In this document: positions 2,402-9,414 of the stretch, piece by piece
Numbering within the stretch: the first letter of the stretch is position 1
Layout of the letters: each line of letters opens with the position of its first letter
Notes under the pieces: model-generated
The model's database searches: none
What the model saw: the letters and a program-made list of their open reading frames with translations, nothing else
Told to the model about the DNA's origin: nothing
Translations under genes and position numbers: made by a program
Assembly (NCBI GenBank): GCA_010909725.1
Contig: JAACMV010000027.1
Coordinates: 62,001-126,000 of the forward strand
From: Picochlorum sp. 'celeri'
Lineage: Eukaryota; Chlorophyta; Trebouxiophyceae
Length of the DNA stretch: 64,000 bases
Direction: 5' to 3'

Positions 2402-3480
<1,079 letters not shown>

Positions 3481-3582
3481 GCTTCTCTCTTCTTTTTTCC
3501 TGGAGCTTGTGAAGATTGACAGTCTGCTGCTGCTGGTTATGCCAGCGAGAGACTACTGACTTTGACAAATTATATTCATACT

Positions 3583-3598
3583 GGTGTTATTCAACACC
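3583..3598 (+). promoter_or_regulatory. Histone H3 3'-end stem-loop
   Basis: GGTGTT-ATTC-AACACC forms a 6-bp stem with a 4-nt loop, followed directly by ACCA, as in animal and chlorophyte replication-dependent histone mRNAs. It lies 102 nt after the H3 stop. Confidence 0.9.
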
Positions 3599-3833
3599 AC
3601 CATATTATGATCATGGAAATATTGTCTTCTCTTAGAGATGATCTCTACGATACTGTGGATGCTCACTTCGAGCAACACCACTAAAGATAGGAAAACACAT
3701 CATACATACACTTCATGTACATTTGAATATTTTACAACAAGGTTTCTGATATCATGTAGAGGGAGTGAGTCGTCCATTCATTCATTCAAGTATGTGTGAA
3801 AAAGCACACAAGTTTCCAAAACTAATACATGGT
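3599..3833. other. Spacer between convergent H3 and H2A 3' ends
   Basis: This AT-rich spacer lies between the two inward-facing histone stem-loops. I see no gene in it. It should contain the downstream purine-rich processing elements of both transcripts, but no element is clear enough to call. Confidence 0.5.
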
Positions 3834-3849
3834 GGTGTTGAATAACACC
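3834..3849 (-). promoter_or_regulatory. Histone H2A 3'-end stem-loop
   Basis: On the minus strand the sequence is GGTGTT-ATTC-AACACC, identical to the H3 and H2B copies, followed by ACCA. It begins 45 nt after the H2A stop codon. Confidence 0.9.
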
Positions 3850-3893
3850 AGTTGATTGTTTGAATTGTTGTTGTAAGCAAGCAGCAGCAGGAT

Positions 3894-4268
3894 TTACTCC
3901 TTCTTTCCACTCTTCTTTGGGAGAAGAACAGCGTGGATGTTTGGCAACACACCTCCCTCGGCAATGGTGACACCAGCCAAGAGCTTGCTCAACTCCTCAT
4001 CGTTTCTGACAGCAAGCTGAATGTGCCTTGGCACAATTCTGGTCTTCTTGTTGTCACGAGCAGCGTTACCTGCAAGCTCGAGAACCTCAGCAGCCAAGTA
4101 CTCGAGGACGGCAGCAAGGTACACTGGGGCACCAGCTCCAATTCTCTCAGCATAGCGTCCCTTCTTGAGGTATCTGGCCACACGACCAACTGGGAACTGA
4201 AGCCCAGCCTTGGCTGACTTGGTCATAGACTTCTTGCCAGAAGACTTTCCTTTTCCACGTCCAGACAT
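3894..4268 (-). CDS. Histone H2A
   Basis: The start is placed at MSGRGKGK (4268), because the 13 in-frame codons upstream do not match the family; this gives 124 residues. Family landmarks are [17 protein letters not shown], the acidic patch region [33 protein letters not shown] and [12 protein letters not shown]. It pairs with H2B. The C-terminus ends SGKKE and has no SQ[E/D] motif, so this is canonical H2A rather than H2A.X. A TATA-like TATAAAAC lies on the minus strand at 4326-4333, and a histone stem-loop follows the stop. The gene is intronless and divergent from H2B. Confidence 0.97.
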
Positions 4269-4592
4269 GATGTTACGTTGTGAGTAGTAGTTGATAGATT
4301 CAAACACAAGTGGTTGAGATTATTTGTTTTATAGTATCCAACGGCCGGGAGTTGCAACGAATTTGTAACCAGACCTCGAGACGATTGCATGCGAACAAGG
4401 CCTTGGAGACCGGGAGTGGGGTCCAACCGGATATCTGACATATCTGGGTCTATGGTCATCCCGGGCGCTGACGCGTTCCTCCATTCCATGACCGCTCTCG
4501 GCATTCTAGGAAACTTGAGGACACCTCGCAACCACGTCTACACAAAACAAATAATTTTGTAATCACTCAGTGAATCACAAATATCAATTACA
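4269..4592. promoter_or_regulatory. Divergent H2A/H2B promoter region
   Basis: This 324-bp spacer lies between the H2A and H2B start codons. It holds a TATA-like box for H2A (4326-4333, minus strand). The strings CCGGATA (about 4428-4434) and TATCTGGGT (4441-4449) are shared with the H4/H3 spacer, which suggests common histone promoter elements. Confidence 0.65.
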
Positions 4593-5013
4593 ATGGCTCC
4601 AACATCTGCTAAGAAACCAGGAAAGACCGTCAAGGACGGAAAGAAGGCCAAGAAGTCAGTGGAGAGCTACAAGCTCTACATCTTCAAGGTGCTCAAGCAG
4701 GTGCACCCAGACACTGGAATCTCTTCCAAGGCCATGGCCATCTTGAACTCTTTCATTGCTGACCAGTTCGAGAAGATTGCCTCCCAGGCTGCTCAGGTAG
4801 GTGAAGGAAGATTTGACATGAATGACTCAACTCAACAGTCCTCTGACATACGTGTATGATATCCATCTGATGCAGTTGTCTCGTGTCAACAAGAAGCCAA
4901 CCTTGACATCCCGCGAAATCCAGACCGCTGTGCGCTTGGTCCTCCCAGGAGAGCTTGCCAAGCATGCCGTGTCTGAGGGAACCAAGGCTGTGACCAAGTT
5001 CACCTCTGCCTAA
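4593..5013 (+). CDS. Histone H2B, interrupted by one intron
   Basis: Exons 4593-4796 and 4876-5013 give 113 residues; the 79-bp intron is GTAGGT...CAG, phase 0. Without splicing the reading frame would stop early and lose the C-terminal helix. The spliced product has [34 protein letters not shown] joined to [20 protein letters not shown], then [20 protein letters not shown]. The N-terminal tail is short. The intron is notable because replication-dependent histone genes of animals are intronless, yet this copy also carries the stem-loop at 5061-5076. Confidence 0.96.
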
Positions 5014-5060
5014 GCGCATTGCTGATGAGCATAGTACTCTTAACAAAAAAACAATCAACT

Positions 5061-5076
5061 GGTGTTATTCAACACC
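5061..5076 (+). promoter_or_regulatory. Histone H2B 3'-end stem-loop
   Basis: GGTGTT-ATTC-AACACC is followed by ACCA, 47 nt after the H2B stop. It is identical to the H3 and H2A elements. Confidence 0.9.
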
Positions 5077-5149
5077 ACCATATCCCTGTATTGGAAAAGA
5101 ATCCCCCTTTCCGTTCTGAATGTTGGAGGCAAAAGTGAAATTTCATTCG

Positions 5150-5245
5150 TGTCATCGCCGAGAATTGAACTCGAGACTTCACGGTATTGAACCTCTCGTG
5201 GGGTTGATCCCACAACGTGACGTGATACCACTTCACCACGATGAC
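5150..5245 (-). tRNA. tRNA-His (GTG anticodon) with a 25-nt intron
   Basis: Folded by hand on the minus strand: acceptor GTCATCG/CGATGAC (7 of 7 pairs), D stem GTGA/TCAC with loop AGTGGTA, anticodon stem TCACG/CGTGA, a 4-nt variable loop, and T stem TCGAG/CTCGG (one T-G pair) around TTCAATT. The anticodon loop reads TTGTGG, then a 25-nt insertion, then C, so the intron sits at the canonical 37/38 position. Intron bases CCCAC can pair with GTGGG across the anticodon, the usual pre-tRNA architecture. Base 5150 gives discriminator A. The mature tRNA is 71 nt; the extra 5' G of tRNA-His would be added after transcription. Confidence 0.9.
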
Positions 5246-5453
5246 TGTACAACGGAAAGAATGTGCGTTCATTCTGCAATTTTTCAATGTATATTAATAT
5301 GTGTGGGGCACCCGCGGCCCTGTGACCATACTTTTTTGGATCCTGTGAAGGCAGAATTTTTACCTGGCTGACATCGCACAATCCCTCGTGACCAGAGGAG
5401 TCAGAATAGGCGCATCGGAACCACAAGTGTGCTCCATTATCATGCCTCTTTTA

Positions 5454-5477
5454 CAGTAAAATTTTTTAATTTCGTTT
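5454..5477. repeat. Left terminal inverted repeat of the Fanzor element
   Basis: This repeat starts CAGTAAAA and ends AATTTCGTTT. It matches the inverted right end at 21 of 24 bases and is preceded by TA. It lies 97 bp beyond the Fanzor stop codon, so the nuclease's 3' end and any guide RNA run into it. Confidence 0.72.
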
Positions 5478-5574
5478 GTCGGACGGAATGTTCCAAACTT
5501 GGAAGTTCCATCGTTCTCTCTGCTGTATCTTGAAGCATAGCGTCTGCAAAAAGCAGCCGACTTACATGCCGAAT

Positions 5575-7968
5575 TCATTGCCGTGTTGATGTCCTTTGCC
5601 TTTTCCTCGTCCTCTTGAAAGCCTTGATTCGAGATCCATTGTGACACTTTTCCAAAAACAAGTCTTTGATATTGATACTGGCATTGACATCACGGTCCCA
5701 AACATTTCGAATGCATTCATTGTTGTGACAACGTTTCATCCTGAATTGTTTGTTGTACTGTTCCATTGCCTCATGACAGCAAGAACAGAGTTTGGACGTA
5801 TTGAATTCATTAACCAACACAACTGTGGCACATTCCGATACCTTGTTGAACAGTTTTGTGCTCATGATAGGAGCAGTGCCCCTCATTGTGCCGTTATTAT
5901 CACCATCACCATACGCCACGATGACTCTCTTCTGTGCCTCTTTGTTTCTTGTTCCACAGATTCGAGCAACCACATCCTCCATGGCCGACTTTTCCTTGCA
6001 AAATTTCCTCATCTTCTGTTTCTGATACCATTTTTTGTCATCGAAGAAGGCTTGTTGCAGTTGGGGCCACATAGAAACTTGGAATCTGTAACTCTCAAAA
6101 ATTTTCTCAAGATCTACTGTCTTGTATGTTGGCACAGACACCCATGCAGGACAGTATTCAGACATCCTTTTCTTTATTTTGGCTGTATACTGTTTCTGAC
6201 TAGATAAGAAGATCCATTCTCCTGACCCCAGAGAATCACTTTTATATCTGTCTTCCACCTCTGTATGACGACCATTTTCTGCATTCCACTTTGCATGGAT
6301 CTTTTGCTTTTCCGAATCATGAAAAACCCACGTGGCCGCTGACTTTTTACCTGGGTCCAAACCGACAATGATACAATCTGTGTGATATATACCATGGTCA
6401 TCTTTGCGTATGCCAGCCAACCTTTTGATCCTTTTTGTGATGACTGTCTTGTCTTTGTTTTTAGCCTTTCGTTTCTGTAGAACGTCCTTTTGTGACTTTA
6501 ATGTATGCAACAATGGCTTCAGTAGAACATAATGTATGGTGGAAATGTCACCAAGGAGAATACGCAAAGGGTCATATCTGATCTTTTTTGCAATAATGTT
6601 GGTTGCAAACATCCCACAATAGGTGGCCCACAACTTTGCTTTGACGTAATTCATATCATCCTGCAGATGGATTATCTTGCATTCCAGATCCGACTTCACA
6701 GTGTCTATAACAGCAGAAACAGAGACGCCATCAGTGCATATAGAGCATCCGAATCTGAGTTTCGTTTGGTCCTTCATGTGCTTTTTTTTCAATACTCGCT
6801 TCATGTTGAATATCGATTTCCAATAATAATACTTATTTGTATAGTCATCCAGTGCTGGACAGTCATCTACTATCTTTCTGATATATGGATATTTCTTTGC
6901 GAGTTGCTCAACCATAGTCTTCACTGCTGTGCTGGAGATATGGATATGCTTTGGTTTCCAGGCCATCTGTGGACACAGACAAAATGTCCATTTCTGTCTT
7001 CCAAGTATACTCTTCTTCCCTTCAAACTCTCCGTTTCTGAACCTCTGTTGCAGTGATTCCACGAATGGCTCCAAGTGACCCAAAATGAAGAAGCAAATTC
7101 TGGATTTCTCAGAAAGAGTTGTCGTCTTTGGCACCAACGAGCAAATGATATCCAAGGCTCTCTGTGCTTCATCCCATACTGACACATCAGACGCAAATTC
7201 TGTCAATGATGGTCTACGTTCAACAATATCACTGACTTTCGTCCTCTCCCAGAATGCCTGTGTGATTGCAGAAAATACTTGTCCAAACTTCTTCTTTGAC
7301 AAATTTTTGATTTGGTCAAAGTCCGTGTCGTCTCGAAATAGCAAATATCTCAGATACCGTAATGCATATACATTAAGATTGGTTTCCAAATGCGTGGTAT
7401 GCATAACAGACGACTGCTGGGCCATCTGCTCCATTGTTTTGTCTCTCCAAGAAGAGAGACAACCCTGTGGCCAATCTGTTTTTAACCCAGTCTCCTCACA
7501 ATATTCCTTGCACAAGTCGCGCAAGTTGGTATCAACATCCTTTCTCTCCTTCTTTTGTTGCAAATGATTAGCAAGGTGTCTGTAGATTTTGTTGTAGAGT
7601 TCGTAGAGAGATTCATCTTTGTGGTCTCTAAATGCCCCACCGTTCCTCAATAACAATAGATGCATGACATGATGCGCATGAATCTGTAGTCTACTCAGGT
7701 AGAATACACATTCTTCAATTTCGCGTTGAACCACTTTGAACTTACAAAAAGGCTGCAAAGTGCACTTGACGACTGTCTTATTGAAAAAACGGTCTTTATC
7801 CTTCTTTATAGCCACATCCAATCGAGTAAACTTCTTTTTCTTCACCTTTTTCGATGGTGTGGCGGACACCTTTCTCTTTTTTTTCATTTTGAAATGACAC
7901 GGTTGGCGATGGCGGCTCGACTTCATACCAATCCAAGGTTCTAGAAGATTCGGATTGACCAGAGTCAA
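5575..7968 (-). CDS. Fanzor, eukaryotic TnpB-type RNA-guided DNA endonuclease
   Basis: This single open frame of 797 residues has the RuvC fold of TnpB/Fanzor. RuvC-I is VGLDPGKKSA with Asp538; RuvC-II is VLVNEFNTSK with Glu721; RuvC-III is WDRDVNASINI with Asp760. A zinc finger, C-x2-C (728, 731) and C-x4-C (747, 752), lies between II and III. The N-terminus is strongly basic and includes KKKRKV (29-34) and KKVKKKK, good nuclear localisation signals. All catalytic residues are intact and no frameshift is seen. Related Fanzors use a 3'-overlapping guide RNA to cut DNA next to a short target-adjacent motif. Starts at Met15 or Met28 are possible; all keep the signals. It is intronless and is the only gene inside the inverted-repeat element. 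Confidence 0.92.
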   Translation of the reverse strand: MTLVNPNLLEPWIGMKSSRHRQPCHFKMKKKRKVSATPSKKVKKKKFTRLDVAIKKDKDRFFNKTVVKCTLQPFCKFKVVQREIEECVFYLSRLQIHAHHVMHLLLLRNGGAFRDHKDESLYELYNKIYRHLANHLQQKKERKDVDTNLRDLCKEYCEETGLKTDWPQGCLSSWRDKTMEQMAQQSSVMHTTHLETNLNVYALRYLRYLLFRDDTDFDQIKNLSKKKFGQVFSAITQAFWERTKVSDIVERRPSLTEFASDVSVWDEAQRALDIICSLVPKTTTLSEKSRICFFILGHLEPFVESLQQRFRNGEFEGKKSILGRQKWTFCLCPQMAWKPKHIHISSTAVKTMVEQLAKKYPYIRKIVDDCPALDDYTNKYYYWKSIFNMKRVLKKKHMKDQTKLRFGCSICTDGVSVSAVIDTVKSDLECKIIHLQDDMNYVKAKLWATYCGMFATNIIAKKIRYDPLRILLGDISTIHYVLLKPLLHTLKSQKDVLQKRKAKNKDKTVITKRIKRLAGIRKDDHGIYHTDCIIVGLDPGKKSAATWVFHDSEKQKIHAKWNAENGRHTEVEDRYKSDSLGSGEWIFLSSQKQYTAKIKKRMSEYCPAWVSVPTYKTVDLEKIFESYRFQVSMWPQLQQAFFDDKKWYQKQKMRKFCKEKSAMEDVVARICGTRNKEAQKRVIVAYGDGDNNGTMRGTAPIMSTKLFNKVSECATVVLVNEFNTSKLCSCCHEAMEQYNKQFRMKRCHNNECIRNVWDRDVNASINIKDLFLEKCHNGSRIKAFKRTRKRQRTSTRQ

Positions 7969-7995
7969 ATGGACTAGATGTTACATTCCTTAATT

Positions 7996-8019
7996 AAACG
8001 AAATTTAAAATTTTTACGG
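7996..8019. repeat. Right terminal inverted repeat of the Fanzor element
   Basis: Read on the minus strand it begins CCGTAAAA and ends AATTTCGTTT, the mirror of the left end, and is bounded outside by TA at 8020-8021. It starts 28 bp upstream of the Fanzor ATG, so the promoter must overlap this terminus. Confidence 0.72.
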
Positions 8020-8106
8020 TATGTTTGTTTTCACCGGTACAACACACCTTCGCAACAACACTGTGTTTTAAACTTTATTTTCCGAATATATATTGTATAC
8101 ATATAC

Positions 8107-9414
8107 TTACTCTTCGAAGCTAACACGAATGCGGCGCCAGCGAGAAGATACTTTCACAAGAAGGTTTAAAAATTCACGGCTGGAAGATACCGCCACTTGA
8201 CTTCTGGAGTCCATTTGGCCTTGGTTCATGTGAAATGTACACCGATCTAAATATACTTTATCTGAGTTTAAGAGGGGTAGAAACACGTATCTCTCTACAT
8301 ATTCGTACCATTGCTGTCCATTGACCGCAATATCAATCTCTGTCAATCGTAACAACAGTTCAGCAGGTATCCGGAACAAATACTCAGCTGGTATCCACAG
8401 CTGCTTGCATCGATCGCCGATATCATCTAAAAATACACTCAAGATGGATATTTTCAAAACTTCAAGATGAGAACCTTGACTTGGCATGCTGATTTTATCA
8501 ATGCCAGAATTCCTGATGTCGACATGCTGTATTCCTACTGGAAGCTGCAACGACCTCAAGGGATTCCAAGCCAAATCTCTAACTTCAATGTGCTTCAAAT
8601 TCTCGCAATGAGATGCATCAATTGTGTCATCGATGACAAATGCATCTCTCGTGCCGTCACATGAGGAAATAACAAGTTTTTCCAAACTCCTGCAAAGTAT
8701 CGCACTGTTTATCCATGAATTAATTGGTGCATGGCAATAGCAATGTCGAATCTCCAGCGATCTCAAATTCGGCAAGGATACAATTGGCAAATCATCGTTT
8801 GGGTTGGTTGCAATGTACGTATTCGACAAGCTCAACTTCTCCAAGTCCATTGGCAACTTTCTGTCTGTGAGCACCAGAGAGGTGGTATCCCAACCGAATA
8901 TTTTCAAGTTTTTCAATGCCACAAAATCATGAAAACTTATTTGATGCTCTATATGCTTTGTTCTGTTGATCACCAATGTGTGTATTCTCAGGTTCAGGCC
9001 ACTCTCGCAGTTCATGAGCAGTTGCAACAACCCACTAATGTCCTGGTGATCTTTCAGCACGACCGTTGTGGCGCTGTCATCCTCTTCTGCATGCTCAACC
9101 TCACATGATTTATTGGGCGTCTCACCGGATATGATGCAAATGTGTTTGGCATGGGCAATATGCCTTCCACTGCAGAACCTCAAGTACTGGTCCAGTTGGT
9201 CTTCCCGTAACGTCACCTCGTGACGACGAAACAACACATGTACTTCTTTATCGTTCGTATCATAGTCCAATGAATTTATGAGACTCAAACCGAGACGGTT
9301 AAGGAGTGTCTTTGATGTCGCCAGGCAAAACCTCACTCGATCCTTGATATCGAGCAGATGGGTGCCCACGATGCGCTCCAAAAGATCCGTGGGCAGGTTT
9401 TCCATTGGTATCAT
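8107..9414 (-). CDS. F-box protein with leucine-rich repeats
   Basis: The gene encodes 435 residues. The first 45 (PMENLPTDLLERIVGTHLLD through SKTLLNRLG) fit an F-box, which docks to Skp1 in SCF ubiquitin ligases. The rest has irregular leucine-rich repeats, for example LKNLKIFGWD, LEKLSLSNTYI, LPNLRSLEIRHCY, LEKLVISSCDG and LKHIEVRDLAWN, typical of the substrate-binding part. No close named family is recognised. It lies just outside the right end of the Fanzor element (8019) and is transcribed in the same direction. The start at 9414 is the first Met and begins the F-box; Met4 is equally possible. Confidence 0.75.
   Translation of the reverse strand: MIPMENLPTDLLERIVGTHLLDIKDRVRFCLATSKTLLNRLGLSLINSLDYDTNDKEVHVLFRRHEVTLREDQLDQYLRFCSGRHIAHAKHICIISGETPNKSCEVEHAEEDDSATTVVLKDHQDISGLLQLLMNCESGLNLRIHTLVINRTKHIEHQISFHDFVALKNLKIFGWDTTSLVLTDRKLPMDLEKLSLSNTYIATNPNDDLPIVSLPNLRSLEIRHCYCHAPINSWINSAILCRSLEKLVISSCDGTRDAFVIDDTIDASHCENLKHIEVRDLAWNPLRSLQLPVGIQHVDIRNSGIDKISMPSQGSHLEVLKISILSVFLDDIGDRCKQLWIPAEYLFRIPAELLLRLTEIDIAVNGQQWYEYVERYVFLPLLNSDKVYLDRCTFHMNQGQMDSRSQVAVSSSREFLNLLVKVSSRWRRIRVSFEE

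Follow-up and report, generated by a model that had tools for sequence, protein, structure and literature searches.

In the diploid assembly of Picochlorum sp. 'celeri' (P. celeri), allelic copies of a Fanzor1-only transposon are mostly much more alike than the sequences that flank them. The element itself is of an ordinary kind, a TA-flanked transposon with Fanzor1 as its only gene; what is new, beyond the already published element type, is the allelic pattern. This pattern fits RNA-guided homing or retention between homologues, with conversion caused by the nuclease as its putative basis. The preliminary description covered the element only, and the allelic pattern was no part of it.

Anatomy, copies and mobility of the element

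The window, i.e., the whole stretch of 64,000 nucleotides that was analysed, corresponds to positions 62001-126000 of contig C27. It contains an element of 2,566 bp (5454-8019) whose single gene, an intact Fanzor1, is encoded on the minus strand. Of the 24 positions of the left end (5454-5477, CAGTAAAATTTTTTAATTTCGTTT), 21 are matched by the right end (7996-8019; CCGTAAAAATTTTAAATTTCGTTT when reverse-complemented). TA adjoins both ends (5452-5453 and 8020-8021), and the inner motif GGAATGT at 5485-5491 has an inverted copy at 7983-7989, the distances to the respective ends being nearly equal. The preliminary description had named the inverted 24-bp ends with 21 matches, the shared inner motif, the TA beside both ends and the enclosure of only one intact Fanzor gene, and all of this was borne out: the ends enclose one minus-strand gene, in the 5575-7968 frame, and TA is also seen at the ends of other copies. 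A third GGAATGT, again inverted, is located at 5830 within the Fanzor gene. No transposase gene was found inside the element at 5454-8019. The features are as follows.

5432..5451, minus: putative guide, the flank beyond the TA in minus-strand readout (suggested by PMC10711439)
5452..5453, no strand: left TA of the target-site duplication, read from the sequence
5454..8019, minus (Fanzor strand): complete non-autonomous Fanzor element, 2,566 bp; boundaries identical across many copies
5454..5477, plus: left terminal inverted repeat, 21/24 match to the other end; forms a hairpin in folds
5454..5477, minus: 3' end of the putative guide-RNA scaffold, coinciding with the left terminal inverted repeat
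5454..5574, minus: putative omega/reRNA scaffold, stop codon to element end (position and PMC10711439)
5485..5491, plus: inner motif GGAATGT, left copy
5575..7887, minus: predicted Fanzor1 coding sequence, 770 aa, from the ATG used by most relatives; open frame reaches 7968
7983..7989, minus: inner motif GGAATGT, right copy
7996..8019, minus: right terminal inverted repeat, 21/24 match to the left end
8020..8021, no strand: right TA of the target-site duplication, read from the sequence
8020..8022, minus: putative target-adjacent motif 5'-ATA (TAT on the plus strand), proposed from TAT at 10/10 distinct right junctions

Histone genes adjoin the insertion on its left (window 2402-5013); from their translations and from recall we take them to be H4, H3, H2A and the end of H2B. 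ARAGORN gave no tRNA near the insertion.

The genome searched comprises 27,412,692 bases in 30 contigs; the published phased diploid assembly of P. celeri is described as two 15-scaffold sets totalling 27.43 Mb, with an SNP heterozygosity of 0.8% (PMC7225527). The search returned 23 matches to the element: 20 near-full-length copies of 98-100% identity, a 396-bp fragment (C22L) at a further place of its own, and two relatives of 68% identity on C20 and C5. An intact Fanzor frame is kept in 13 of the 20 copies. Grouped by their flanks, these 20 copies occupy about 11 places, eight of which are present on both homologues (nine including C1/C21a), and many copies are found close to contig ends. 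The left end is complete (24/24) and preceded by TA in every near-full-length copy. An undisplaced right end with TA behind it is found in 17 of the 20 and in the fragment. The TA target duplication was thus read from filled copies (right TA in 17/17 where the right end is in place); a clean empty site with both flanks was not found in the genome. The C11 copy lacks its right 65 bp, and in C15b/C27b other sequence precedes a displaced right end about 2.8 kb further on. Allowing up to 3 mismatches, a search for the ends in the alga's own genome gave 48 matches, against 0 for a reversed control pattern. The preliminary description had proposed such a search for further copies of the ends, with the lack of any second copy or related transposase ends, together with an orthologous locus in distant species, speaking for a resident gene; many copies with the same ends were found at different places, 20 of them near full length.

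Copies at different places are mostly 3-15 substitutions apart. C27L and C19 differ by a single substitution, and C29/C21b and C13/C1 show 0 differences and have flanks in common. C21a is 14-25 substitutions from the other copies and carries many indels, C15b/C27b are older, with about 55 substitutions to the other copies, and C21b and C27L are rearranged, with flanks of mixed origin. The Fanzor copies on C29, C13, C21 and C1 directly adjoin a dispersed repeat that starts TTTGCGATGCGTAG; this repeat was also seen on C14 and C30 and seems to lie inside C15b/C27b.

A gene-free element of 527 bp with ends of similar type and TA flanks is present at C2:1322214-1322740 and C22:1296350, and it holds short repeats similar to those of the Fanzor element. 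Because of this gene-free relative and the 20 near-full-length copies at about 11 places, the element is a member of a mobile family and not a resident gene. The similar ends of the 527-bp element further suggest use of such ends in trans, now or in the past. A genome search with Pfam DDE_3 (Tc1/mariner) gave 0 matches and one with DDE_1 (pogo) gave 8. The ends of three DDE_1 elements were resolved and none equal those of the Fanzor element, in a comparison limited to these three. A search for the ends of the element at C3:1301782/C23:1283230 did not find them, and a further DDE_1 match is that at C3:884816. Hence, no autonomous transposase with these ends was found, and pogo-type transposases with other ends are present. 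Of the earlier proposal, the non-autonomous TA-flanked Fanzor element stood; an autonomous mariner with the same termini did not emerge. As there is no transposase in the element and none with matching ends was found, mobilisation in trans is something we can only infer.

The related Fanzor element on C20 (C20:32000-40500, positions 2491-8501; about 50% protein identity) is interrupted by a 3.3-kb pogo-type element with the ends CAGTAGTCCGAAAAAAGATA, one of the three DDE_1 elements with resolved ends. Repeats every ~792-798 bases were noted at C6:477865-480502 and C28:460911-463540; they are related to a dispersed repeat beside a pogo-type gene on C3.

The Fanzor1 protein and its putative guide

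The minus-strand open frame at 5575-7968 comprises 797 codons. Translation likely starts at the ATG at 7887, giving 770 aa, since most aligned relatives start there. The protein matches the Pfam domain Cas12f1-like_TNB, a zinc-ribbon domain of the Cas12f1/TnpB kind. Fifteen relatives of 45-98% identity were found, the 98%-identical one possibly from the same species. The residues D538, E721 and D760 and four zinc-ribbon cysteines are invariant in all 17 alignment rows, the window's own included. A DPG motif is located at 538, six residues separate E721 from C728, and the zinc finger is formed by C728/C731/C747/C752. The sequence thereby matches a relaxed form of the Fanzor1 search pattern (RuvC D-E-D, DPG, a glutamate six residues before the zinc finger) and departs from the exact pattern in PMC10711439 by its DPG-E spacing of 180 and a second pair of the form Cx4C. 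When a structure model (mean pLDDT 72.5) was submitted to Foldseek, the best seven matches were SpuFz, PpFz and GtFz chains, with E values from 3.6e-13 (SpuFz) to 4.7e-9 and TM-scores of 0.34-0.46 by query length. Based on motifs and modelled fold, we read the protein as a Fanzor1 with putative RNA-guided cleavage activity.

A single-sequence query against the PDB and a search of NCBIfam both gave no match, and no relative was confirmed on viral contigs. A PDB profile match to the Guillardia Fanzor1 (E 0.0074) was taken as chance, with six beta-lactamases beside it. Further Fanzor-like stretches in the same genome, mostly 26-45% identical to the window's protein, were seen on C10, C11, C14, C16, C19, C20, C5 and C4, at C27:56369 and elsewhere.

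Folding of the putative scaffold region 5454-5574 yields two hairpins, which are also present in the C20 relative; the fold score is not significant for the window (z -1.2) and reaches z -3.4 for the C20 relative. Rfam gave 0 matches over window positions 5300-8200. The proposed target-adjacent motif (TAM) is drawn from the right junctions, where a T follows the TA at 10/10 distinct junctions (~5e-5 against background). The same TTA..TAT context is also found at 2/3 pogo elements without Fanzor, which weakens the TAM reading of this junction asymmetry: the T may instead reflect a preference of the transposase. At the C22L site, the T belongs to the target, because element-free copies on C2 hold the same right junction, TATTTATTTG, as the filled C22L. 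The duplication is unreadable at this site, C22L having lost its left junction.

Allelic copies and their flanks

For seven allelic pairs, 6 substitutions in 17,960 positions of the element compare with 94 in 24,521 positions of the flanks (Fisher 2.6e-16), the flanks being taken over about 1.9 kb per side with far ends trimmed and without the right flank of C27b/C15b, which lies inside the element. An eighth pair, C19/C11, has an element body with 0 differences over 2,500 bases, whereas its two flanks show 59/1,467 and 30/1,899 (together 89 in 3,366). Among pairs with at least 10 flank substitutions, the effect is seen in 6/6, summing to 5/15,328 for the element and 178/20,327 for the flanks. 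Two SNP-poor pairs say little (C8e/C17e, 0 in the element vs 5 in the flanks; C8b/C17b, 1 vs 0). The opposite was observed for C1/C21a, which was kept outside all allelic totals: 18 substitutions in the element and 0/2,325 in the flanks, in a noisy comparison with substitutions clustered with indels near a contig end.

For reference, bit scores imply about 6 differences in 1,764 positions for a local coding gene. Purifying selection is unlikely to explain the low divergence of the element, because six young copies show 18 nonsynonymous and 5 synonymous changes. Neither is repeat status alone a likely cause: in the C29/C13 pair, with 4/2,563 substitutions in the element, the right flank consists mostly of a dispersed multi-copy repeat and still kept 18/1,990 differences, partly clustered. 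Flank substitutions occur within 33-85 bp of three insertions (window, C22R and C29/C13), and the sequence next to the insertions shows no obvious low-divergence tract. Three Fanzor-free pairs are uninformative as a control, since all lie in substitution-free stretches: the pogo pair C2/C22 (0/782 in the flank, 0/3,179 in the element), the 527-bp pair, and 1,101 bases next to the C3/C23 pogo gene.

Element-free alleles were searched for at twelve joined sites, of which eight were queried whole, plus C21b, C22L and part of C27b. Two were found, at C22L and C27L. The C22L copy is the fragment without a guide end, and it faces three tandem element-free site copies on C2. The latter lie at C2:13243, 18574 and 23893, ~5.3 kb apart, and the stretch was matched once in C22. 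At the C27L site, a left flank free of the element was found on the C15 chromosome; it has the ATA motif and shows a single mismatch to the guide, at position 9. Since C27 and C15 do not agree in their right flanks, this stretch of C15 is perhaps not a simple empty allele. On C30, a partial duplicate of the C4/C30 flank runs through the site, and the TA is lost. The left flank of C11 breaks 16/17 nt from the target-site duplication with a CT insert at the breakpoint, in agreement with the non-target-strand cut position given for SpuFz1 (PMC10432273). This breakpoint is a single post hoc case whose CT insert such a cut does not account for, and the element-free alleles are few and came to notice only in retrospect.

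Explanations for the allelic pattern and known systems

The best explanation, in which we place about even confidence, is a trans-mobilised, TA-inserting Fanzor1 element whose nuclease cuts the empty allele, upon which repair copies the element in. The anatomy, copy number, TA flanks, catalytic residues and allelic likeness that enter into it are observed, and the Fanzor1 fold is modelled. A non-autonomous Tc1/mariner/pogo-like element would be moved in trans by a transposase. Its transcript would continue past the left end into flanking sequence, thereby providing a guide for the empty form of the same site, the ATA serving as putative TAM. The Fanzor would then cleave the empty homologue, or the junction that remains after excision, and the element would be copied from one homologue to the other as the break is repaired with the help of the filled chromosome. 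A wider reading, which we hold more tentatively, is that a eukaryotic transposon has in Fanzor a natural homing nuclease: every insertion would target its own empty allele and proceed to homozygosity, and only copies lacking a guide or alleles with a changed target would stay unequal.

Elements more alike than their flanks could also be explained by transposase activity alone: both haplotypes would have carried the element beforehand, one copy would occasionally be excised by the transposase, and the homologue would serve for repair, with no need for Fanzor. The spread of the element to many places is in keeping with this scenario, which we nonetheless consider unlikely: without its right end, the C11 copy ought to be beyond excision, but its body is identical to that of C19 over 2,500 bases. 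The C11 argument is weakened by the fact that the end could have been lost after copying.

An equally small probability is given to an assembly effect, in which the assembler gave both haplotypes element sequence that was unphased or collapsed. Multi-copy repeats of 2.6 kb are hard to phase, and assemblies of the FALCON-Unzip/Phase type can write unphased stretches into both haplotypes. This assembly was built from PacBio data with FALCON-Unzip/FALCON-Phase and without short-read polishing (PMC7225527). Against such an effect stand the flank substitutions so close to the three insertions, the differences kept in the neighbouring multi-copy repeat, and the pair C19 and C11, which differ in their junctions and show a flank divergence of 1.6-4%.

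Recent spread through a sexual population, with ordinary recombination placing the filled allele on different flanking haplotypes, agrees with the youth of the copies, most pairs of places being 3-15 substitutions apart. We regard it as improbable, as by our own estimate it needs recombination many times commoner than mutation near every site. The chance that we are dealing with a resident gene whose inverted ends arose by coincidence is negligible, ruled out as it is by 20 copies that share their ends and the adjoining TA but lie in differing surroundings.

If homing holds true, new insertions would become homozygous via a Fanzor programmed against its own empty allele. The biological function of Fanzor was described as little known as of 2023 (PMC10711439), and a search combining Fanzor with homing, gene conversion or gene drive showed no claim of Fanzor homing in the titles and abstract openings of the matches listed. 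A diploid, culturable alga with about 11 young places, heterozygous flanks at six and element-free alleles at two, would make retention or homing directly testable. Excision and repair, assembly collapse and recombination are less probable sources of the pattern.

Fanzor-only elements with Mariner ends are already published (PMC3627910). PUl-4 and related Mariner elements of that report resemble the present one in Fanzor1 as the only protein, Mariner-type ends and TA duplication; PUl-4 is from another organism (the paper's code PUl, Pythium ultimum) and has another sequence, and its ends are said there to be identical to those of confirmed Mariner members, whereas the present search gave no autonomous partner. 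The best structural match is SpuFz1 of Spizellomyces punctatus (PMC10432273), whose TAM, CATA, has the proposed ATA as its last three letters. It differs in sequence (14% identity, TM-score 0.45 by query length) and in that its activity is experimental and that of the present protein predicted. TnpB of IS200/IS605, with its retention and plasmid gene drive (PMC11870625), is comparable in that the guide is taken from the flank, the element-free site is cut and the filled form is copied or enriched. That system is bacterial, uses another transposase, and was demonstrated experimentally on plasmids instead of homologous chromosomes. The non-autonomous Fanzor1 element of SfAV (PMC10711439) likewise holds only a Fanzor between inverted ends, with target-site duplication and inverted end in the RNA scaffold; it comes from a virus of an insect, and its transposon family is unknown there. 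In Auxenochlorella, a Fanzor element is reported as the most abundant repeat (PMC12636532).
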